The notes under the pieces are model-generated. The model was not told the origin of the DNA. It searched no databases and saw nothing but the letters and a program-made list of their open reading frames with translations. Shown one piece after another: positions 16,237 through 48,014 of a DNA stretch of 64,000 bases. Positions within the stretch are counted from its first letter, which is position 1. Every line of letters begins with the position of its first letter. Made by a program: the position numbers and the translations under genes. Source of the DNA: Ruegeria sp. A3M17 (GTDB taxonomy: Bacteria; Pseudomonadota; Alphaproteobacteria; Rhodobacterales; Rhodobacteraceae); assembly GCF_003318255.1 (NCBI RefSeq), contig NZ_QOCF01000008.1:84391-148390 (forward strand), in the 5' to 3' direction.

Positions 16237-16338
16237 ACAGGTCTCCTGACCCGCAGCTTGGACAGCAACTCGGGGTGATGCAAGCCCGAGGCCGGATTGA
16301 ACCTTGATTGACAGGCACACGCGATATATCTGAGGCGC

Positions 16339-16437
16339 ATGAGAGTCTATTTGGCCCCCGCTCCGACACTGCAAGACCGCACGCGCCTGCGTGAACGGTT
16401 CTTTGGGGCCGCCCGCACGGTTCTGGCCCGCCTATAA
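16339..16437 (+). CDS. Possible small ORF in the leuC leader
   Basis: ATG at 16339 opens a 32-residue frame ending at TAA (16435-16437), 52 bases before leuC. The peptide starts [20 protein letters not shown] and is rich in Arg (7) and Leu (5), ending VLARL with the rare CTA codon before the stop. Its place just before leuC suggests a leader peptide, but Leu codons are not clustered as in classical leucine attenuators and I see no terminator/antiterminator pair. Confidence 0.3.
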
Positions 16438-16489
16438 GCGACGCCCAGCCACTCGCCAGCTATTTCTCATTACATACGGGAGAGGACCG

Positions 16490-17893
16490 ATGTCCCCCAA
16501 AACACTCTATGACAAGATCTGGGATGCCCATGTCGCGCACGAAGCGGATGATGGCACCTGCCTGCTTTATATCGACCGCCATCTGGTGCACGAAGTCACC
16601 AGCCCGCAAGCCTTTGAAGGGCTTCGCATGTCGGGTCGTCCGGTGCGCGCGCCGGAAAAGACCATCGCTGTGCCGGATCACAACGTTCCGACCACTGCGG
16701 ATCGCGTAAACGGCATCGAAAACCCCGAATCGCGTATTCAGGTCGAAGCGCTGGACAAGAACGCCAAGGATTTCGGCATTCACTATTACCCGGTGAATGA
16801 CATTCGTCAGGGCATCGTGCACATCGTCGGCCCCGAACAGGGCTGGACCCTGCCCGGCATGACCGTTGTATGTGGCGACAGCCACACGGCCACCCACGGC
16901 GCGTTTGGTGCTTTGGCCCACGGCATCGGCACGTCCGAGGTCGAACATGTTCTGGCCACGCAGACTCTGATCCAGAAGAAATCCAAGAACATGAAGGTGG
17001 AAATCACTGGCAAATTGCAGCCGGGTGTGACCGCCAAGGATATTACTCTGGCTGTCATTGGTGAGACCGGCACAGCCGGCGGCACCGGCTATGTCATCGA
17101 ATATTGCGGCGAAGCGATCCGTGATCTGTCGATGGAAGGCCGCATGACCGTCTGCAACATGGCCATCGAAGGCGGCGCCCGCGCGGGCTTGATCGCGCCG
17201 GACGAGACCACCTATGAATATGTCAAAGGCCGCCCCCACGCGCCGAAAGGCGCACAGTGGGAAGCCGCGCTTACATGGTGGAAAACGCTGTTTACCGACG
17301 ATGACGCGCATTTTGACAAGGTCATCACCCTGCGCGGTGAAGACATCGCGCCTGTCGTGACCTGGGGCACCAGCCCCGAGGACGTTCTGCCGATCACCGC
17401 GACCGTTCCAAACCCCGAAGATTTCGAAGGTGGCAAGGTCGACGCGGCACGCCGCTCGATCGAGTACATGGGTCTGGAAGCCGGTCAAAAGCTGAGCGAC
17501 GTCGAGATCGACACTGTGTTTATCGGATCCTGCACCAATGGCCGCATCGAAGACCTGCGCGCCGCTGCGGAAATCCTGAAGGGCAAGAAGGTCAAGGACG
17601 GTATCCGCGCAATGATCGTGCCCGGCTCGGGCCTTGTTCGTGCGCAGGCCGAAGAGGAAGGTCTGGCTGAGATCTTCAAGGCGGCCGGTTTCGAATGGCG
17701 TCTGGCTGGATGTTCTATGTGTCTGGCGATGAACCCGGACCAATTGGAGCCCGGTGAACGCTGTGCCGCGACCTCGAACCGCAACTTCGAAGGCCGTCAG
17801 GGCCGGGGCGGACGTACCCATTTGCTGAGCCCTGCAATGGCTGCCGCTGCGGCAATCACAGGACGGCTGACAGACGTGCGTGAATTGATGTAA
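16490..17893 (+). CDS. leuC: 3-isopropylmalate dehydratase large subunit
   Basis: A 467-residue aconitase-family subunit that, with LeuD, isomerises 2-isopropylmalate to 3-isopropylmalate in leucine synthesis. I choose ATG at 16490 ([14 protein letters not shown]) with GGGAGAGG just before it; the open frame from 16391 is upstream leader. Motifs: [39 protein letters not shown] with the first cluster cysteine, and [11 protein letters not shown] with the other two [4Fe-4S] cysteines. Full length. leuD lies downstream with an HdeD-like gene between. Confidence 0.96.
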
Positions 17894-17930
17894 GGTCCCA
17901 TCACATCTAGATATTTGAGGGATTGAAAAC

Positions 17931-18485
17931 ATGAGTGACTGGGTCAAATGGCTCCTGCTGGGGCTGCTATCGATAGCATTTGGCGTCTTTGCGCTGGGTA
18001 ATGCTATTGCCGCATCGGTTGCGGTGACGCTCGTGACCGGTGTGTTGCTGCTGATAGCGGGAGCATTTCAGGTCGTCGGCGGCTTCACCGTCGAAGGTAC
18101 CGGCAACAAGATTCTGTCGCTCATTATGGGTGCGGTGATGCTATTTCTGGGCTGGAATTTCATGTCCGAGCCTCTTGAGGGCACCATCACATTGGCAATC
18201 GTTGTCATGATCCTATTTATGGCTGGCGGAATCGCCCGGATCATCCTGTCCTTTCAGATGCGTGGAACCCAGTTCTTCTGGCCGACGCTCATCTCGGGCA
18301 TCTTGTCCGTCATACTAGCCGTCATTATCTGGAACTACGCGGCTCAGGAAAAAACAGTTCTCTTGGAATTGCTGGGGATTTTCCTGGGCATTGAGATGCT
18401 GTTCAACGGGTTTGGATTGGTCTTCATGGCGTTCTTCGTCAAGAACGCTCCCAACGACGCAACAACAGAAGCGAAACAAGCTTAA
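17931..18485 (+). CDS. HdeD-family (DUF308) membrane protein
   Basis: A 184-residue inner-membrane protein with six hydrophobic helices packed as three internal pairs (starting WLLLGLLSIAFGVFALGNAI, then VTGVLLLIAGAFQVVGGF, LSLIMGAVMLFLGWNF and so on). This is the HdeD pattern; E. coli HdeD takes part in acid resistance at high cell density. It sits 37 bases after leuC and 42 before leuD on the same strand, so it is probably transcribed with the leucine genes. Why it is there is unclear. Confidence 0.82.
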   Translation: MSDWVKWLLLGLLSIAFGVFALGNAIAASVAVTLVTGVLLLIAGAFQVVGGFTVEGTGNKILSLIMGAVMLFLGWNFMSEPLEGTITLAIVVMILFMAGGIARIILSFQMRGTQFFWPTLISGILSVILAVIIWNYAAQEKTVLLELLGIFLGIEMLFNGFGLVFMAFFVKNAPNDATTEAKQA

Positions 18486-36802: not shown

Positions 36803-38314
<1,512 letters not shown>

Positions 38315-38317
38315 ATC

Positions 38318-39424
38318 TCAGGCCGCCTTATTCTGTTCGGTTACGTCACCGGCGCGATAGAGCCGGCCAAATTCGGTGTTCAGGAAATCGGACAGGTTCA
38401 CCTGTTCCTGCCGGACAAAGCCCTTCGCAGGCAGCGCGCCGGTCCGCATCAGATCAACCACACCCAGAACGCCTGCGGCAGTAGTGACCTGAATAGCGCT
38501 CCAAATCTGTCCGTTGATCGTGCGGGCAAAGCTTTTGTTGATCAGGGATTTCTCGCGCAGCGCGCCGTCGATCATTCCCTTTGCTGTGCAATAGACCAAA
38601 ACCACATCCTGATCGGTGCGCGGCAGCGCGGTCTCAAAAATGTCCTTCAACAGGTCGCGGCGATGTTCCAGGCCAAGGTCCTTCAGAAGCAATTTCAGGA
38701 TATCGCAATGGCCCGGGTACCGGATTGAGCGGTAAGACACCGCCCGCGCCTTGCCGTCCAGTGTTTCGGGTAAAGTCCCCAACCCACCAGAGGTGTTGAA
38801 GCATTCGTACTCCACCCCGTCATGGCCAAGCAGCTCATAATCCTCCAGCGGAGCGGTCTTGACCCGTTCACCATTCACGATGGCATCGCAAGGATTGCAG
38901 TATTCGTTGATCAACCCGTCGGTGGACCAGGTCAGATTGTATTTTAGCGCGTTGGTCGGATAGAGCGGCAGCGCCCCGACCCGCATATGCAAGCTGTCGA
39001 TTTCATCAAATTCCACAGCCAGAGATGCCCCTGCGATACCGACAAATCCCGGCGCCAGACCGCATTGCGGCATGAATGCCGTATCACTGCCTTGTGCCAA
39101 GTCACGCACCGCATTGGTCGCGGCAACGTCTTCGGTCAGGTCAAAATAGTGTGCACCAGCGGCCTTGGCCGCTTTGGCAATCTTCGGCGTCAGAAAGAAC
39201 GGGGCCGCCGAGATTACGGCATCGAACCCACCCAGGCCTTCGGTCAGTTGCGCTTCGTCGCTCACATCGATCTGCCGGGTCGAAATGCCCTGCTTGTTCA
39301 ATGCTGATAGCGCGGCCAAATCACGGTCGGCCACTGTGACCGAGTAATTGGCCGATGACTTCAGCAAGGTCGCGATCATCTGACCGATCTTGCCTGCTCC
39401 GATGACACAAATGTTCCAGCTCAA
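38318..39424 (-). CDS. Lysine 6-dehydrogenase, saccharopine dehydrogenase family
   Basis: A 368-residue NAD(P)-dependent enzyme. The N-terminal Rossmann motif [13 protein letters not shown] (residues 9-21) is followed by the saccharopine-dehydrogenase catalytic domain ([33 protein letters not shown]). The family includes saccharopine dehydrogenase and lysine 6-dehydrogenase. The stand-alone form, with a piperideine-6-carboxylate dehydrogenase coupled downstream, favours oxidative deamination of L-lysine at the 6-position. Together the pair would turn lysine into 2-aminoadipate. First gene of the unit; repeats of TTGAC lie upstream. Confidence 0.75.
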
Positions 39425-39841: not shown

Positions 39842-42800
39842 GTGCCTAAAGATCCAATTGAAAGCTCACAATCATTCAATCCATCCCAAGACGATCTGAA
39901 ATTGATAGATGAGGTCCTGCCATCCAAGGATCCATCAGTCATTTATTCGAAATTCGAGTTCTACGAAGTATCCGAAGAGATGGTCCTGCCCTCTGAGGGT
40001 ATGTTTGTCGTCCTTGGCGGCATGGTTCAGCTCCGGCAGGACAAAGCGGTTCTGGCGACCGCAGACACCGGGGACTATTTTTACGAAGAACATCTCGAAA
40101 TCGAGGACATTCCCGTTAGTCTTCAGGCGCTGGCCACTCCGGGCACCCGATTGGCCTATCTGCCCAAACACCAATGGAAGGCAATCCCGAAAAAAATCAA
40201 AGATGCCTGTGAAGATACGCTATTTGGCGATCTGGTCAGTGTGCATCTGAAGAACTATCAACAGCCGATCAATTGCTGCAGCGTGACCGCGGCAGCCCTT
40301 AGCATGTCGGCGCTTGGATTCAGCTATGAAGTCAACGACATCTTTCGCGAATGCGGCTTGCCGACCTCGTTTGTCGTAAACGACGGAATATCGCTGGGCG
40401 AACTTTTCGATGTCGCCTGCACATTCATCCATACCCAGGACCTGCGCGATGTCATTCAGGTGCAGGCCTATTTCATGGATGAGGCCACGACATCCGTGGA
40501 TCTGTTGCTTGAGGCAATAGACGAATCCAATCGACTGGGTGGAAAAAACGATATCCTTGTGGCGAACTTTCAAGTCGGTGTCGCACATGGCAAGGAAAAC
40601 ATGCCGGGCGGCCATTTCGCCATTATCGCAAAGTGTAACCCCAGCACCGGCCTTGTTCACATGATGGACGTTCACCCGGAAAAGTACGGCAAGCTTTGGG
40701 TGACAACCATTGATCGGCTGTGGGCCGGGATGACGGACCGCGACGGAACGTCGATGCGATCACGGGGGATGCTGCGGTTTTCGGCGCTAGACGCTGTCAA
40801 AACATACCTGCAAACTCTGAAGCAGGACTGCAATTATGTCGACAGTACAGAATACCTGGCCAAGGACCCCAAAATGCGGCGCAACCTGTTCAGGCGGGCC
40901 AGCCCGAACATGAACTCGATGGGCGTTCTTGCCGAAAGCCTGGCCATCCTTGGCGATGAACAGGTTGACGAGGATAAACTGCTGAGGGCAACGCAAACCG
41001 ATCTGGCCGAAGCGCTTAGCCGTGTGTCAACAGCCCGGGAAATGCACGCGATGGCGCAACGGTACCTCAGTCAGGAATCGGACGTGCATCTGGGCAGCTC
41101 TTTCCGCAGCTATGCCAATCGTTCGGACAAAAGCCTCAAAGCACCCGAAGACTGGTTCCGCTACCAATTGCTAGGCCTGAACGAACACAAAGATCGACGT
41201 CATCTGATGATCAATATCGATTTCAATAAGGTACTGGGGTCAGAGGTCATTCGTCCCCCAAAGAATGCGTTCCGTGAAACGGCCCTGTTGGAGGAGTTCT
41301 GGTGCCTGTGTATCGCTTATAAGGAGGCCACCGATATGGTGACGGTTGTGGACATGAGCCCCGCGACCTCACAGGTATGGCAGGCACCGCGCGGGCATTT
41401 GTTCCGCGGCCTTCGGGACCTCAAGGACCCGGCCTTGCTCGTGATCGAAAAACAGGACCCACCCGAAGACCCCAGCGACGTAGACCAGATCGTCAAAAAC
41501 AACCCGCTTGTTCTTTTTTATGCGGATGAAGATCCCTGGTCCTACATGCTGCGCAGTATCCTGGCCAATATCGGCATCACCGACATCAAGCTGATTGATG
41601 TCGAAGGGCACGGTGCAAATGTTATGAAAATGCGCCGGCAACTGATCGCCCGAACCGGCAAGGAAACCGTTCCGTATCTGTTTTTCAATGGCGTTTGCCT
41701 GGGCCGGCGAAACGACATCGTGGACAGTATCCTGAAAGGTGAATTTCAGAAGGACGTGGAAGAGGCCGGGTTGCCGGTTCTGCTGCGTCATGAATCCCCC
41801 AGCCTGGACAAGAACATCTTTGGGTATCCCAAGGGCGGGCTGACCGATGCCCCCAGCGAAAAGCGCAACGTGTTGCTGTGTGCTTGCGGATCATCGGCGG
41901 CGGACAAGGTGCCGCAACTGGTGAAGAAAATCACCGATGCCGGCCACAATGTGAAACTGATCCCTTCAGTGTCCGCTGAAAGGTTCTTTCGCGACATCGA
42001 GATTGAAGCGGATGTCGAGATTGAAAGGGGATATGAGCCCGAGAAGGTCGAGGATTATATCTCTCACAACGACTATTACCGCGACGACGACGAATGGAAC
42101 TTCCGCTACACCAAGTTTGGCATGCCGCTGCGCGCCTCGCATCTTGCGTTGTGTGATTGGGCCGATTGCGTGATCGTGGCGCCCGTGACCTGCAATACAA
42201 TGGGCAAGATCGCCAATGGGATTGCCGACAACCTTCTGACCTCGGTCTTTGTCGCCTGGCAATACCGGAACAAACCGGCGATCCTTTGCCCGGCGTGTAA
42301 CACCAACATGTGGAACAACGTCACAACCCAAAGGAATGTCGAAAAGCTGCGCGATCTGGGTGTCGATCTGGTCGGTCCCCGCAAAGGGCGATTGTCGAAC
42401 GGCATGATGGGGATCGGTATGATGGCCACCCCGGACCAGATCATGGAAGTTCTGGACGAGGCGTTCGAGGAATTAGCCGATCAGGAGCACAACATCTGCA
42501 AATGGGCGCAAGAGGCCGCAGCTTCGGATGAGTTCGCGCAATGGCACCGTGTTTTCGACGCGATTGAAAACGGGATGGCCGGGATCGACATCGTGGATGA
42601 GCACAATGGCGATACGCTGTTGCATTACGCGGCTGGCGGCGAAGGTGAGTTGCATGAAAACGGAAAAGGCTTGGGCAAACCTGACATTGAGGCCGCGCAA
42701 GAGCTGATACGGCGCGGCATCAACGTGAATGCAGCCAACGACCATGGGTTTACCAGCCTACACGTGGCGGTGATGAACAACTCGGTTGATATGGTCAAAA

Positions 42801-43480
42801 CTCTGTTGGCTGCAGATGGCATTGACGCAAGTTCGTGCATTCACTTCCTGCAAAGCCCCAAAAACGCCGAGGACGTCAATGAAGCCAAAATCTCGAATGA
42901 AGTGCTGGCCATGCTGGATGGCTGGGCCAACAGCCACACGCTTGCAAAGATCGAGGAAGAGAGCGAAGACGATGTCGTAGATGACCGTGAGCGCACCTAT
43001 CTCTACTTCACCTATGGCTCGTTGAAGAAAGGCTTCCCGAACCACGAAGCCCACGCCGATGTGCTGGACGATTTCGTTGGCAAGGCCGTGACCCGACAGC
43101 GAATGCCCCTGATCGTGCCGCATGAGCCGCATTGCGACAATCCGAACTGTGGTTACCTGCATCGGATGGCCACGCTGGTCGACCAGAAAGGCCGTGGCAA
43201 TCCAATACGTGGAGAGGTGTATCGGGTGACTTCGTCCGGTATGAAACAGCTCGACAAGCTTGAAGGTTTTCACGGTCCCGGATCACCCGAGAACGTCTAC
43301 GTCCGCAAGAGGATCAATGTGCTGATCGAGGGCGTAATGAAACCAGCATATGCCTATGTGATCGCGCAGCCCACCAAGTATCTGGATCAGTTGGAGACGG
43401 GCACAGCCGGGGTTGTCGGGGAATACACGTTGGACATGGCCACAGGCACATTAAAACCCGGGTGGCAGCCACCCGCCTAG
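39842..43480 (+). CDS. Giant fusion: cNBD-like, phytochelatin synthase, Grx-like, HFCD flavoprotein, ankyrin, gamma-glutamyl cyclotransferase
   Basis: A 1212-residue cytoplasmic protein (GTG start, GGGGGG before it). Domains: about 30-120, CRP-like cyclic-nucleotide-binding roll (MFVVLGGMVQL, DTGDYFYEE) without the canonical phosphate-binding Arg motif; 135-320, phytochelatin synthase with Cys146, His258 (GGHFAIIAK) and Asp276 (DVHPEKY), His-Asp spacing 18 as in plant enzymes; 430-535, a possible degenerate second copy; 553-640, glutaredoxin fold with TVPYLFF but DPWS in place of CPYC; 676-875, HFCD flavoprotein (WADCVIVAP, CNTMGKIANGIADNLL, NTNMW) with His767 and Asn820 kept but the reductive Cys replaced by Asn853; 922-990, ankyrin repeats; 1052-1180, AIG2-type cyclotransferase with YGSL and Glu1141. 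Inferred substrate: glutathione or gamma-Glu-Cys peptides. Confidence 0.85.
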   Translation: MPKDPIESSQSFNPSQDDLKLIDEVLPSKDPSVIYSKFEFYEVSEEMVLPSEGMFVVLGGMVQLRQDKAVLATADTGDYFYEEHLEIEDIPVSLQALATPGTRLAYLPKHQWKAIPKKIKDACEDTLFGDLVSVHLKNYQQPINCCSVTAAALSMSALGFSYEVNDIFRECGLPTSFVVNDGISLGELFDVACTFIHTQDLRDVIQVQAYFMDEATTSVDLLLEAIDESNRLGGKNDILVANFQVGVAHGKENMPGGHFAIIAKCNPSTGLVHMMDVHPEKYGKLWVTTIDRLWAGMTDRDGTSMRSRGMLRFSALDAVKTYLQTLKQDCNYVDSTEYLAKDPKMRRNLFRRASPNMNSMGVLAESLAILGDEQVDEDKLLRATQTDLAEALSRVSTAREMHAMAQRYLSQESDVHLGSSFRSYANRSDKSLKAPEDWFRYQLLGLNEHKDRRHLMINIDFNKVLGSEVIRPPKNAFRETALLEEFWCLCIAYKEATDMVTVVDMSPATSQVWQAPRGHLFRGLRDLKDPALLVIEKQDPPEDPSDVDQIVKNNPLVLFYADEDPWSYMLRSILANIGITDIKLIDVEGHGANVMKMRRQLIARTGKETVPYLFFNGVCLGRRNDIVDSILKGEFQKDVEEAGLPVLLRHESPSLDKNIFGYPKGGLTDAPSEKRNVLLCACGSSAADKVPQLVKKITDAGHNVKLIPSVSAERFFRDIEIEADVEIERGYEPEKVEDYISHNDYYRDDDEWNFRYTKFGMPLRASHLALCDWADCVIVAPVTCNTMGKIANGIADNLLTSVFVAWQYRNKPAILCPACNTNMWNNVTTQRNVEKLRDLGVDLVGPRKGRLSNGMMGIGMMATPDQIMEVLDEAFEELADQEHNICKWAQEAAASDEFAQWHRVFDAIENGMAGIDIVDEHNGDTLLHYAAGGEGELHENGKGLGKPDIEAAQELIRRGINVNAANDHGFTSLHVAVMNNSVDMVKTLLAADGIDASSCIHFLQSPKNAEDVNEAKISNEVLAMLDGWANSHTLAKIEEESEDDVVDDRERTYLYFTYGSLKKGFPNHEAHADVLDDFVGKAVTRQRMPLIVPHEPHCDNPNCGYLHRMATLVDQKGRGNPIRGEVYRVTSSGMKQLDKLEGFHGPGSPENVYVRKRINVLIEGVMKPAYAYVIAQPTKYLDQLETGTAGVVGEYTLDMATGTLKPGWQPPA

Positions 43481-44640
43481 TTTTGAACCAGTATCCCGAC
43501 CTCATCCTTAGGGCTGTCCTTGAGGCTGAGGTTATAGGCCGTGATGGCCACCATGCACAAAAGGACAAAGGGCCAGAAGCAGGCCTTGGGAATAAGATTG
43601 TCTTTATAGTGGATGAACCACAAGGACGGCACGGCCTCGGCTGCAAAGAAATAAGTGTTTACCGACACTGCCAGCAGCAGGAAATACATCAGGAAAAAGA
43701 ACGATTCCATGTAGATCACGGGCGACCCGGCAAACCCTTCGCGCAATTGTACATGCGCCAGCAGGATCACGAAAAACAGGACTGAGCAGGTGCCGATAAC
43801 ACTGGACGTGCTGAAATCGTGCCGTTCCACCAGATTGGGGCGTCGCGTGACCGTCATTACGGCCCCGAACAGCAGCATCGTCACAACAATCAGCGGGATC
43901 ATGTGAACGATAAAGGCGTTCGCAAAGTTCCGTTTGATGACGAAGTTATAGTGCAGCTCCGGCAGGTTGGTCTGATATTCGTTCTTGCCGATGCCCAGGG
44001 TCGTATCCAGATCGGACAGGCGGTAGTCGAAATAGGTGTTTTCACGCTCCCACGTTCCCATGACAATCCGGTTGTCGATGCCAAAGATATCGCCCGGCCC
44101 TGTGGCGGGATATGCGGAAAAGTCAGGGATTAGAGCCACATTCACGTCAAACTCACCCGGCCAGAAACGGACCCAGACGGTTTTGTGGTCGAAAGGATAG
44201 CTGGTATAGTCAAAGGCCTGGCGCAAGGTCTGTTCAAAATACCAGCCGATCAACTCGGACCCGCCCTGATCTATCCTGTAGGCCTCTTCAATCAGGCCAC
44301 TCGCTGCCTCGGCAGCTTCCGGCAGGATGAACCCCACTTCGCCTTCGGCTGGTTTGATGGCGTCATGCACACCGTCCTCATAATGCTGCCAAATATAGCC
44401 GCTGACATGCACATCACTGGCACCGGTAAAACTGAAGGATTTTATAAATATGCCAGTTTTGACCTGATAGCCTGGTAAATTGGGAAGGTCTTGTAAATAA
44501 GCGTCGACCGACGCCTGATCTGGCAGTTGCGTCGGATCCTCGTCGAAATGGTTCAGTTCAATCCAGAGTTTGAACAGAACTAGGGCCAGACCCAGCGTAA
44601 CAAAACCCGAGATCAGCCAGACTTTCTTTTCTATGCTCAT
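43477..44640 (-). CDS. Pentameric ligand-gated channel-like membrane protein
   Basis: A 387-residue protein. One N-terminal helix (7-27) is followed by a beta-rich domain of about 210 residues and four helices near 240-264, 278-297, 309-333 and 352-370. YPFD at 148-151 matches the conserved (F/Y)PFD motif of the Cys-loop of pentameric ligand-gated channels, and LHYNFVIKRNFANAFIVHMI leading to Pro249 matches the strand-10/M1 junction. The 3+1 helix spacing also fits. The N-terminal helix and lack of loop cysteines are unusual but occur in prokaryotic forms. It starts 16 bases after a class III cyclase gene and its stop codon shares CTAG with the giant fusion gene. Confidence 0.55.
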   Translation of the reverse strand: MSIEKKVWLISGFVTLGLALVLFKLWIELNHFDEDPTQLPDQASVDAYLQDLPNLPGYQVKTGIFIKSFSFTGASDVHVSGYIWQHYEDGVHDAIKPAEGEVGFILPEAAEAASGLIEEAYRIDQGGSELIGWYFEQTLRQAFDYTSYPFDHKTVWVRFWPGEFDVNVALIPDFSAYPATGPGDIFGIDNRIVMGTWERENTYFDYRLSDLDTTLGIGKNEYQTNLPELHYNFVIKRNFANAFIVHMIPLIVVTMLLFGAVMTVTRRPNLVERHDFSTSSVIGTCSVLFFVILLAHVQLREGFAGSPVIYMESFFFLMYFLLLAVSVNTYFFAAEAVPSLWFIHYKDNLIPKACFWPFVLLCMVAITAYNLSLKDSPKDEVGILVQN

Positions 44641-44656: not shown

Positions 44657-47600
44657 TTAGTCCAGCGGCCCGACCAGCGATTGTTTGATGCCCAGGTTCT
44701 GAAACCGCGCCTTCAAATCATCGAACCCTTCATGTGCCGTCAAAGGAATGCCCCAACCCCCACATTCAGCCAGTGTTCGAGCCTGCAGGATCGACAGATC
44801 AACCATCGGCAAAGGCTCATCCGCTGTGAAAGCGGCCAAGGCATCTGCGTACCGCGTGGCTTCGTCCCACTGCTTTCGCGCCAGCATGACGGCCGCGGCG
44901 TCCGTATAGAAATGCAAGTGGCTATGGCCAACACAGCCTTCGGCGATGATCTTCTCGCCAAGCTTGAGGTTATCATCCTGCGCAGTTGGGTCCTCTTCGG
45001 CCATGGCCAAAGCTGACAGCGCTTTTGGTCCGACAAAATTCCGACCGTGTTCAAGGGCAATGTCGACCGCGCGGCGACCGGTTTCGCGCGCCTGTTCCAG
45101 TTGCCCGGCATAGACCTGCGTGCGGGCAAGGTGTTCCAGCGCCTGCGCCTCAAGGCGTTTCGCGCCAACGCGGTTTGCGATCTCGGCAGACAAGGTAAAG
45201 ACGTCCGACGCCTGATCTATTTCCCCTAAAAAGGTGTGCGCGACACCCAAACAGGTCTGTGCCACGCATTCCGGAACAAAGGCGAAATACTTCTGTGACA
45301 CGTCGATGGCTTCCTGCGCATCCAGCTTTCCTTGCGCTACTTCGCCGGTATAACTGCGCGCGACGCTCAGATTGTGCAGGTTTGCGGCCAAATCACGGAC
45401 CAAACCCTTTTCCCGCGCCCGTTCGACCGCCTGCGTGTAGAATCCCGTTGCGGTCTGCATCGTGGCATTCATGAAATTGGCGTCGCCAAATCCGCTGAGC
45501 GCGCCAACTTCAAGTCGTGCGGATTCAAGCTTTCTGGCCAGTGTTAGAGCCTTTTCATTACTCTCAAGCGCCTTTGTCACCTGCCCTAGCGGGAAGTATA
45601 CATTTCCGCGCACATAGTTGATTTGGGCAATGTCGCGGTCAGACCCGCAGCGTTCCGCAGCCGCCTCGGCAATGTCCAAACTTTCCAGTGCTTCCTGATA
45701 CAGGCTGGCCTGCCGCGCGGCCTGCGCCAAGCCGATTTGCGCCCGGCAGATTTGTTCATCCGTTTCGGCCAGTTCTGCGGCCTCTTTGAATTCGCGCAGG
45801 GCATCATTGGACAGACCCTGCAACCGGTGCGTCTCACCCCGGGCGCAGAACAGATCAAAGCGAACCCCTGCGGGTGCTGGCAGTTCCAGCGCCCGTTCGA
45901 TCAACGGGCTGGCATCGTCGAACTGAAAGACCTGTATCAGCTTGTCTGCGGCTTCCAGATAAGCCTGGGCCGCATGGGTCGCGCCCGCACGATCCAGATG
46001 CTGCGCCCGCAATGTGGCGTCTCGGTCTTCGAACCAACTCGCGGCCTGACGATGCAGGCGCGCGCGTTCGGATTTCACCAAAGTTGCATAGGACCCGTCG
46101 CGGATCAGCGCGTGGGCGAACATCAGATCGGCCTCAGCCTCGCGGATCAGAGCCGAGCGGATAAGGGTCGAGGTATCCAGATGCCCTTCACCCAGAACAA
46201 AGTTCAAAACTTCGGGCGAGAACCTCTGCCCCAGCACGGATGCCGCCTGAATCGACGTCCGGCTAGTCCGGTCCAGCGAATCCAGACGGGACTGAACAAT
46301 GCCCTGAATGCTGCCGGGAACAGACTCCTGTTTCAGCACATCGATATTGCGCAATAACTGCTCAAGAAACAGCGGATTACCCCCGGCGCGTTTTACGCAG
46401 GCATCTAACAGTTCCGGGTCGATCCCGGTGAACTCTTCGACCAGTTGTCGGGCCTGTTCGTCCCCCATCGGCGCCAGTTCCAGCTTGGAAATCAGGGCAC
46501 CATCCGTCGCAAGTTGCCATTCGCGGTCAATCGGATCGCCTTCCACACGGCTGGTCATCAGCAGTACGCAGGGCAGATTTCGCGTCATCGCCGCGATATG
46601 GGCGCAAGCGGTCAGGATCTCGGGTGCAGCCCAGTGGATATCCTCGATATGGATCAACAAAGGCGTTTCCTGGCTGCGGGCCGAAATCAGGTCGTCGATG
46701 ACCTGACGCCGCCCCCGCAGACGGGTTGCATTGTCCATCACCGCATAGACCTCGGCCAGACCGGGGTCTTGTTCAAGCTCTAGCAGGGCATTCAGGTGCG
46801 CGGCATTCGCCGCTGTCACCCAACCCTTGCTAATTGCGTCCTTCGCGACAGATGCACAGGTTTCCGTATCATCCGTCGGCTCCAGCCCCAGAATACTGCG
46901 TGTCACGGATTGGATGGCTGAATGCCCCTCACGCGCACCGAAATCCATGACCACGCCATTGTGGATGGAATAAGACAGGCTATCGGCCAGCTCCGCCACC
47001 TGTTCGGATAGGTGGGTTTTTCCGATACCGGGCTCGCCCAGTACGATATGGACCTCACCCTTGCCGTGCCGCTGACATCGATCGAACGTTGCCGAAAACA
47101 AGGACAGCTCTCGTTCGCGGCCCACAAAGCGATGCCGGCGCGACCGGATGTTGCGCGCCATCCGGTCCAGCCGCCACAGCTCAACCGGATCACCAAGGCC
47201 TTTGATCGCCTTTTCGCCCATAGACTCACCAACGAAAAGCGGCCCTAACGCACGTTGAATGTCATGAGAAACCAATGTTTCCCCCGGCGCCGCCATGTCG
47301 GTAATGCGCGAGGCCAGGTTCACACCATCGCCGGTGACGGTGTATTCCGTATGGGCCTGACTGCCTGTCGTACTGGCAATGACCTGCCCTGATGCAATCC
47401 CGATATGGCAGGTTAACGGAGGGTTCAGGCCGGGCAGAACCGTGTGAATTTCCAGCGCGGCCCGCGCCGCCCGTTCGGTATCGTTCGTATGCGAGATCGG
47501 CGCACCGAACACGGCCATGACCGCATCGCCAATATGCTTGTCGATCCGGCCACCGTATTTTTCGACGACCTTGTCCACTCTGGTGAAAAACGCATTGAGC

Positions 47601-47920
47601 AGCGCGTGCATGTCTTCGGCATCCAGTTCGCTGGTCAACCGGGTAAATCCGGTCAGATCCGCGAACATGACCGTCACCTGCCGCTTCGCAGGCTCCAGCG
47701 ATTCCTCAGGTTGAAAAGGTTGGGTGGTTTCGAACGTCTCAAGCTCGGCTATCGCGCGCAAAAGTCGCCGACGATCGCCGACAGCAGTGACTCCGATTTC
47801 GATCAGGTCTTCGCCCGTCAGATCAGGCAAAATTCCAAAATCAATTTTGTTATCCAAAAAGGCTTGCGCGTAGTCAGATAGCCCAAGCGCGCTTAGCCAG
47901 TCCCTAAGGTCCTGAGACAT
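44657..47920 (-). CDS. SAM domain / class III nucleotide cyclase / AAA ATPase / TPR protein
   Basis: A 1087-residue cytoplasmic signalling protein starting at ATG 47920 (GAGGGG six bases before). Order: SAM domain 3-58 (LRDWLSALGLSDYAQAFLDN), class III cyclase domain about 78-250, AAA/STAND ATPase with P-loop GEPGIGKT (295-302) and Walker B LLIHIEDIHW, then TPR-like repeats to the end. Cyclase residues are intact: metal Asp88 (FADLTGFT) and Asp132 (GDAVMAVFG), purine-site Lys128, Asn201 and Arg205 (NLASR). So it should make cAMP. It is the first gene of an operon with the channel-like gene. The nearby fusion protein has a cyclic-nucleotide-binding-like domain. Confidence 0.88.
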   Translation of the reverse strand: MSQDLRDWLSALGLSDYAQAFLDNKIDFGILPDLTGEDLIEIGVTAVGDRRRLLRAIAELETFETTQPFQPEESLEPAKRQVTVMFADLTGFTRLTSELDAEDMHALLNAFFTRVDKVVEKYGGRIDKHIGDAVMAVFGAPISHTNDTERAARAALEIHTVLPGLNPPLTCHIGIASGQVIASTTGSQAHTEYTVTGDGVNLASRITDMAAPGETLVSHDIQRALGPLFVGESMGEKAIKGLGDPVELWRLDRMARNIRSRRHRFVGRERELSLFSATFDRCQRHGKGEVHIVLGEPGIGKTHLSEQVAELADSLSYSIHNGVVMDFGAREGHSAIQSVTRSILGLEPTDDTETCASVAKDAISKGWVTAANAAHLNALLELEQDPGLAEVYAVMDNATRLRGRRQVIDDLISARSQETPLLIHIEDIHWAAPEILTACAHIAAMTRNLPCVLLMTSRVEGDPIDREWQLATDGALISKLELAPMGDEQARQLVEEFTGIDPELLDACVKRAGGNPLFLEQLLRNIDVLKQESVPGSIQGIVQSRLDSLDRTSRTSIQAASVLGQRFSPEVLNFVLGEGHLDTSTLIRSALIREAEADLMFAHALIRDGSYATLVKSERARLHRQAASWFEDRDATLRAQHLDRAGATHAAQAYLEAADKLIQVFQFDDASPLIERALELPAPAGVRFDLFCARGETHRLQGLSNDALREFKEAAELAETDEQICRAQIGLAQAARQASLYQEALESLDIAEAAAERCGSDRDIAQINYVRGNVYFPLGQVTKALESNEKALTLARKLESARLEVGALSGFGDANFMNATMQTATGFYTQAVERAREKGLVRDLAANLHNLSVARSYTGEVAQGKLDAQEAIDVSQKYFAFVPECVAQTCLGVAHTFLGEIDQASDVFTLSAEIANRVGAKRLEAQALEHLARTQVYAGQLEQARETGRRAVDIALEHGRNFVGPKALSALAMAEEDPTAQDDNLKLGEKIIAEGCVGHSHLHFYTDAAAVMLARKQWDEATRYADALAAFTADEPLPMVDLSILQARTLAECGGWGIPLTAHEGFDDLKARFQNLGIKQSLVGPLD

Positions 47921-48014
47921 TTCGCCCCTCTGAAGTCCCCAACTCCAAAGACAGGCGTACCACAACAAACCCGGATGAGTCTGCAAAGTTTGAATATTTT
48001 AATGTATATGCACA

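Follow-up and report, generated by a model that had tools for sequence, protein, structure and literature searches.

The fusion gene and its domains

The window considered here is a stretch of 64,000 nucleotides from Ruegeria sp. A3M17, and the subject of this report is a single open frame on its forward strand (39842-43480), which starts with GTG and codes for a protein of 1212 amino acids. An earlier note, made from the sequence alone, had described this product as one chain carrying a phytochelatin synthase (PCS), an HFCD-type flavoprotein and a cyclotransferase, in the order in which they would act on glutathione. The frame was verified, and both the three domains and their order were borne out by profiles, predicted folds and residue invariance. 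Pfam models were matched above their cut-offs at residues 144-309 (Phytochelatin, 38.4 bits versus 24.9), 676-870 (Flavoprotein, 97.8 versus 22.7) and 1055-1183 (GGACT, 53.3 versus 22.8); ankyrin models also exceeded their cut-offs (residues 913-996) and Glutaredoxin, with 20.9 bits, fell slightly under its cut-off of 22.9. The inventory of the note was incomplete: the three enzyme domains stand, and a cyclic-nucleotide-binding (CNB)-like domain, a second PCS fold and the glutaredoxin and ankyrin parts had been overlooked, as had the linked cyclase gene described below. The enzyme domains and their main sites are as follows.

40223-40789 (+), residues 128-316: PCS domain (papain-like, PCS1), predicted to be catalytic
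40277-40279 (+): Cys146, predicted nucleophile
40613-40615 (+): His258 of the triad, in register with the GGH of Alr0975
40667-40669 (+): Asp276 of the triad
41858-42481 (+), residues 673-880: HFCD/PPCDC-type flavoprotein domain
42140-42142 (+): His767, aligned with AtHAL3a His90
42290-42313 (+), residues 817-824: PACNTNMW in place of PxMNxxMW
42398-42400 (+): Asn853, at the place of AtHAL3a Cys175
42995-43459 (+), residues 1052-1206: GGACT (AIG2-like) cyclotransferase domain
43133-43162 (+): C1098-x4-C1103-x3-H1107 insert of the GGACT domain
43262-43264 (+): Glu1141, equivalent of GGACT Glu82

The residues singled out in the note (Cys146, His258, Asp276, His767 and Glu1141) were correctly positioned, and each is invariant in the alignment described below (48/48 rows, or, for Glu1141, the 46/46 rows that have the domain and no gap there). 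The full-length fusion gene is present as a single copy in the source genome (4.44 Mb, 40 contigs), and one homolog, P0002, is of identical length (1212 amino acids).

Conservation and distribution

Homologs were sought among about 5.8 billion proteins, of which the 7995 candidates with the most words in common with the query were scored. At a threshold of E <= 0.001 this yielded 70 homologs with identities of 48-98%. The earlier note had proposed to look for other proteins with the same domain order: according to precomputed Pfam annotation, Phytochelatin, Flavoprotein and GGACT occur together in 67 of the 70, which places their combination beyond chance. The exceptions are P0069 and P0070, without GGACT, and P0071 (687 amino acids), without PCS. 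Alignment A1, on which residue counts are based, has 48 rows: the query and 47 of the 70 homologs, the 23 omitted being mainly close copies and short sequences.

The named homologs are largely from Ruegeria. A full-length gene without internal stops was found in 19 of 37 genomes of the same genus, its own included, and in 0 of 24 other genomes of the same class. Scanning of species genomes turned up 39 loci, of which 26 were counted as Ruegeria (one is titled Silicibacter) and 13 carry other titles (Seohaeicola, Roseibacterium, Roseovarius, Rhodobacteraceae, Rhodospirillaceae, SAR116, uncultured Alphaproteobacteria, Aestuariirhabdus and Halieaceae); the latter are mostly metagenome-assembled genomes (MAGs) or single-cell assemblies, whose taxon labels may be wrong. 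A mobile or viral origin was rejected. In viral contigs, neither P0092 nor alignment A1 found any relative. Among plasmids, 63 records matched, each with less than 60% identity and less than 80% coverage of the query, and the best 25 of these 63 matches all lie in or around the flavoprotein stretch.

For the window gene, the ratio of non-synonymous to synonymous substitution rates (dN/dS) was averaged over pairings with 10 of the 39 loci. The ratios are rough, since dS is above 1 in most cases. Mean dN/dS was 0.036 for PCS1, 0.055 for HFCD and 0.094 for GGACT, compared with 0.107 for the second PCS fold, 0.147 for the glutaredoxin part and 0.185 for the N-terminus; the ankyrin part gave 0.104 over 8 pairs, two having been excluded for saturated dS. 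We conclude that the fusion represents a real, conserved multi-domain enzyme family whose individual domains are of known kinds. The combination of PCS, HFCD and GGACT, and the route it implies, appear to be new: no description was found in the literature covered, subscription journals being mostly outside that coverage.

The PCS domain predicted to be catalytic

Like Alr0975/NsPCS (2bu3, 6tho), the first PCS domain has a papain-like fold with the His-Asp pair in register, and a glutathione acyl-enzyme has been seen in the solved relative. The spacing of His258 and Asp276 also matches that of residues 162 and 180 of AtPCS1 (PMC11314372). The triad Cys lies outside the Alr0975 alignment and was placed from the Pfam match (144-309) and the motif. 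Cys146 is the likely nucleophile, since 4 of the 48 rows have Ser for the neighbouring Cys145; Gln140 is invariant (48/48). The solved chains of Alr0975 comprise 200-254 residues, whereas in the fusion the CNB-like domain precedes the PCS domain, and a copy lacking the Cys comes after it, with four more domains.

Separate PCS genes occur in 19 of 385 genomes of the class, besides the source genome; no other domains of the fusion were found on the 3.0-3.7 kb stretches around them (about 1.5 kb per side), which is weak evidence. Heavy-metal phytochelatin synthesis was considered and set aside, nothing specific for it having been found.

An altered flavoprotein domain

AtHAL3a and CoaC (1mvn, 1e20) are the best match of the HFCD domain by both sequence and fold, and they share with the fusion the three residues of the oxidative step (His, Asn and Met). 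His90 of AtHAL3a, the equivalent of His767, acts in oxidative decarboxylation (PMC9604783), and Asn820 and Met823, counterparts of Asn142 and Met145, are retained in 48/48 rows. Two other positions differ from AtHAL3a/CoaC, a change in chemistry that the earlier note had overlooked: Asn853 takes the place of Cys175, the residue which in phosphopantothenoylcysteine (PPC) decarboxylases carries out the reduction from enethiol to thiol (PMC9604783, PMC4626798), and Cys819, beside the catalytic Asn820, takes the place of the first Met of PxMN. Both replacements are found in 48/48 rows, as well as in the family fragments P0072 and P0073. We compared 15 CoaC-type proteins (14 matches from outside the family and the CoaBC of the same genome): the reducing Cys is present in 13, the other two (P0086 and P0087) ending before the site, and Met occupies the Cys819 position in all 15. 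Among solved relatives, the reducing Cys is found in AtHAL3a and in the enzymes of human and Cryptococcus.

A role in coenzyme A biosynthesis was rejected, given the missing Cys, the failure to reach NCBIfam equivalog cut-offs (TIGR00521, 119.5 versus 219.7; TIGR02113, 93.9 versus 261.4) and the separate, Cys-containing CoaBC of the genome. Enzymes of the EpiD/LanD group (EpiD 1g5q, SpaF 7cfu, TvaF 6jls, MrsD, CypD) share the HFCD fold and would share an enethiol end point; they differ in being stand-alone proteins that act on ribosomal peptides, with 15-27% identity to the HFCD domain of the fusion.

The cyclotransferase domain

The C-terminal domain resembles GGACT/A2LD1 (1vkb, 3juc) in its fold, in the YG(S/T)L motif, in the catalytic Glu and in three site tyrosines, which were paired by eye with the published active-site residues (PMC2954230). 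The YGSL motif beginning at Tyr1058 and Tyr1153 are invariant in 46/46 rows, and Tyr1172 and Tyr1195 in 45/45, gapped rows excluded. It differs from GGACT/A2LD1 in being the C-terminal part of a longer chain and in carrying the C-x4-C-x3-H insert, each residue of which is found in 46/46 rows and which corresponds to a gap in mammalian GGACT. Judging from the sequence, the insert is possibly a metal site. In P0041 and P0049 it weakly resembles CCCH zinc fingers. The genome also holds three other GGACT-family stretches and a glutathione synthetase.

A possible route from glutathione to a C2 aminothiol

From the domains, their modelled folds and the fact that the main catalytic residues do not vary we infer three reactions, which would be carried out by one chain in the order of its domains: glutathione would be converted to gamma-Glu-Cys, this to a decarboxylated gamma-Glu-aminothiol, and the latter to 5-oxoproline and a C2 amino-(ene)thiol. 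This is the reading that we favour, tentatively and with slightly less than even confidence. In the first step, Cys146, His258 and Asp276 would remove Gly, a reaction known for NsPCS (PMC12065762), and so expose a Cys carboxylate that is absent from intact glutathione. Removal of Gly would have to come first because the Cys of glutathione is internal and HFCD enzymes need a free C-terminal Cys carboxylate. In the second, His767, Asn820 and Met823 would oxidize the Cys thiol with flavin mononucleotide (FMN) and release CO2; as in EpiD/LanD enzymes, the likely product would be gamma-Glu-NH-CH=CH-SH, provided that it is not reduced by Cys819 or some other group. In the third, Glu1141 would cyclize the gamma-glutamyl group, by then attached to an amine without carboxyl, which is a GGACT-type substrate: GGACT, unlike GGCT and ChaC, accepts gamma-glutamyl groups on alkylamines (PMC7022552). 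The order is chemically coherent, since each step would create the group that the next type of enzyme needs. The pathway drawn in the earlier note thus seems plausible, and may now be stated more sharply.

With the reducing Cys of PPC decarboxylases replaced by Asn853, the second step likelier ends at the enethiol; the note had left the choice between cysteamine and an enethiol open, and the cysteamine branch is weakened by the invariance of Asn853. The same route could nevertheless lead to cysteamine if the flavin domain could run the full PPC-decarboxylase cycle in the absence of that Cys, perhaps by means of a relocated one (Cys819). Fixation of both a Cys loss and a Cys gain, at a position where all CoaC-type proteins compared have Met, would fit such a relocation, as would the presence of three more invariant cysteines (Cys682, Cys776 and Cys784, each 48/48), and the CoaBC of M. 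smegmatis likewise has no Cys at the aligned site. Since no FMN-bound structure shows Cys819 reaching the intermediate, and since LanD-type enzymes are described as making enethiols and going no further (PMC12291118), we regard this variant as possible but rather unlikely.

Another alternative concerns the substrate, which might be a peptide or a carrier-bound Cys: PCS would trim or transfer it, HFCD would form a C-terminal enethiol in the style of aminovinyl-cysteine, and GGACT would remove a protecting gamma-Glu. This would bring the domain close to the EpiD/LanD enzymes; the small-molecule enzyme AtHAL3a, however, is the nearest protein in both sequence and fold, and the HFCD domain is surrounded by folds of glutathione-type enzymes (PCS, glutaredoxin and GGACT), which makes this alternative very improbable.

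Several observations weigh against a single glutathione route. (i) To our knowledge, no activity is known for any member of the family. (ii) The match to PF05023 is weak (38.4 bits), and the substrate of PCS1 could be a different thiol peptide. (iii) M. smegmatis CoaBC aligns Gly with Asn853 and His with the catalytic Asn, so that lack of the reducing Cys alone neither proves an enethiol end nor excludes a complete decarboxylase. (iv) An oxidative decarboxylase requires reoxidation of FMNH2, yet the glutaredoxin fold of the chain is Cys-less. (v) The model of the C-terminal half has a mean predicted local distance difference test score (pLDDT) of 76.5 and a predicted template modelling score (pTM) of 0.54, so that the placement of its domains is not informative; active sites of PPC decarboxylases form between the subunits of a trimer (PMC9604783). 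(vi) Five of 11 matches (P0089-P0092 and P0094, 534-558 amino acids) represent a short form that ends after the CNB-like part and the two PCS folds, and P0070 ends ahead of GGACT. The activities therefore need not always share one chain; judged by these sequences their coupling is not obligatory, and the fusion seems either to have been put together from two or more units or to be separable into them. When loci of the short form were sought in samples of the class and the phylum (385 and 398 genomes), only the window's own gene was recovered strongly. (vii) The association with the neighbouring genes described below is not uniform: of the 33 loci with the cyclase gene, 31 have it on the strand opposite to the fusion gene and two (L036 and L050) on the same strand, and in the Rhodospirillaceae/SAR116-type and Halieaceae loci neither neighbour was found within the stretches examined, an absence that is not established because several of the 13 non-Ruegeria loci end near the gene.

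The stand-alone CNB-PCS-PCS form also speaks for the view that there is no single pathway, PCS acting on glutathione conjugates or metal-glutathione while the flavoprotein and the cyclotransferase act on other substrates or are mainly regulatory. PCS enzymes do process glutathione S-conjugates (PMC3561135), and the Hal3 protein of yeast has a second role in regulating a phosphatase (PMC9604783). By the established mechanism, however, S-conjugates are without the free thiol that HFCD chemistry needs, and the invariance of the HFCD oxidative-step and GGACT site residues, with the strong constraint on these domains, would be needless for pure regulation; we consider this view unlikely.

If the glutathione route is correct, a C2 aminothiol would be obtained from glutathione without breakdown of coenzyme A, the gamma-glutamyl group of glutathione would serve as a protecting group, taken off only at the end, the pathway would be fully fused with a domain order mirroring its chemistry, and HFCD enzymes would gain a new class of substrate. 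The Cys-to-Asn and Met-to-Cys exchanges predict, in a testable manner, which decarboxylase half-reaction is used. Ruegeria are abundant and culturable marine bacteria, so that direct testing of the prediction is possible.

Accessory parts of the chain

The remaining features of the gene are the following.

7 bases 5' of the GTG (+): GGGGGG stretch, seen on inspection of the leader sequence
39866-40222 (+), residues 9-127: CNB-like beta-roll domain, the most diverged part, from fold matches to cNMP-binding domains
40880-41452 (+), residues 347-537: second PCS-like fold, from hhalign of the two halves and the model
41462-41776 (+), residues 541-645: glutaredoxin fold
42497-42961 (+), residues 886-1040: ankyrin repeats

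With hhalign, the two PCS halves aligned over 159 columns at P = 5.4e-4, the HH probability being only 30%, compared with P >= 0.11 for the three other pairs, and in the structure model the order of helices and strands is the same in both. Asn358 stands at the place of the Cys and Trp487 or Phe486 at that of the His, Asp504 being retained. In the glutaredoxin fold, which shares its cis-Pro (Pro611) with PfGrx1 (4n11) and poplar GrxS12 (3fz9), D564-P-W-S567 replaces CPYC (D564 in 45/48 rows, S567 in 48/48), leaving no catalytic Cys. By residue content, and for the PCS copy by its model, both are predicted to be non-catalytic look-alikes, which likely hold glutathione or intermediates.

The CNB-like domain has no conserved Arg in the 48-row alignment where a phosphate-binding cassette would have one. 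PF00027 is precomputed for 6 of the 70 homologs. In a scan of 10 relatives one was above the cut-off of 27.5 (P0041, 27.7), seven were below it (P0090, 27.1; P0049, 25.3; P0051, 24.4; P0069, 24.1; P0068, 22.5; P0065, 19.6; P0092, 18.0) and two, P0070 and P0057, had no listed match, nor had the query. VIA-align reported neither the second PCS fold (347-537) nor a CNB domain among the 50 matches listed, which was not counted against either. Control by a cyclic nucleotide may be suggested by the CNB-like domain together with the linked cyclase.

Neighbouring genes

Two genes convergent with the fusion gene lie next to it.

43477-44640 (-): 387-amino-acid membrane protein, no Pfam family
44657-47986 (-): protein with SAM, class III cyclase, AAA and TPR domains (Pfam)

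As judged by eye, the metal Asp and the Lys, Asn and Arg of the cyclase appear to be present. Clustering of frames at 40 loci (the 39 above and the window) placed the cyclase gene in 33 and the membrane-protein gene in 29; outside Ruegeria the cyclase gene is found in 6 of the 13 loci. Of the 37 same-genus genomes, the 19 with the fusion gene, and no others, have a cyclase ortholog (at least 73% identity, paralogs of 38-41% being excluded) and the membrane-protein gene. Since the three genes are adjacent, this represents one block gained or lost jointly and not separate events.

The 387-amino-acid protein has a YPFD motif and, by eye, about four hydrophobic segments near its C-terminus. Searches with its sequence found nothing either in the PDB set (E <= 10) or in Pfam (up to E 10), nor did a profile built from nine relatives at E <= 1. 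In its relative at L036 (10695-12863) a Cache-type sensor comes first, and this relative weakly matches 4x5t, a ligand-gated channel chimera (E = 0.0053), so that a relationship to pentameric ligand-gated channels is possible, if weakly indicated. ELIC, a bacterial pentameric channel, responds most strongly to cysteamine (PMC3119659). One could imagine a thiol-amine signalling cassette, in which the fusion, under cyclic-nucleotide control, frees a C2 aminothiol (cysteamine or an ene-thiol), the neighbouring channel relative is the receptor and the cyclase closes the loop; we hold this to be quite improbable. The idea starts from no more than the coincidence of the ELIC response to cysteamine with a weak channel match.

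At L051, a Halieaceae MAG, EgtB and EgtD genes (16265-18485), both above NCBIfam cut-offs, lie 2.8-5 kb from the homolog. Mycobacterial EgtB uses gamma-Glu-Cys. A link to ergothioneine was rejected as a general explanation, L051 being a single distant locus and the source genome having no match to EgtD at E <= 0.001. At L042 and L047 a MetE-like gene (cluster 65) is found upstream of the homolog on the same strand; the L047 copy matched methionine-synthase models under their cut-offs. On the other side of the fusion gene, and divergent from it, lie an aldehyde dehydrogenase gene and a saccharopine-dehydrogenase-like gene (36803-39424, reverse strand), which are present in 18 and 12 of the 40 loci, respectively.

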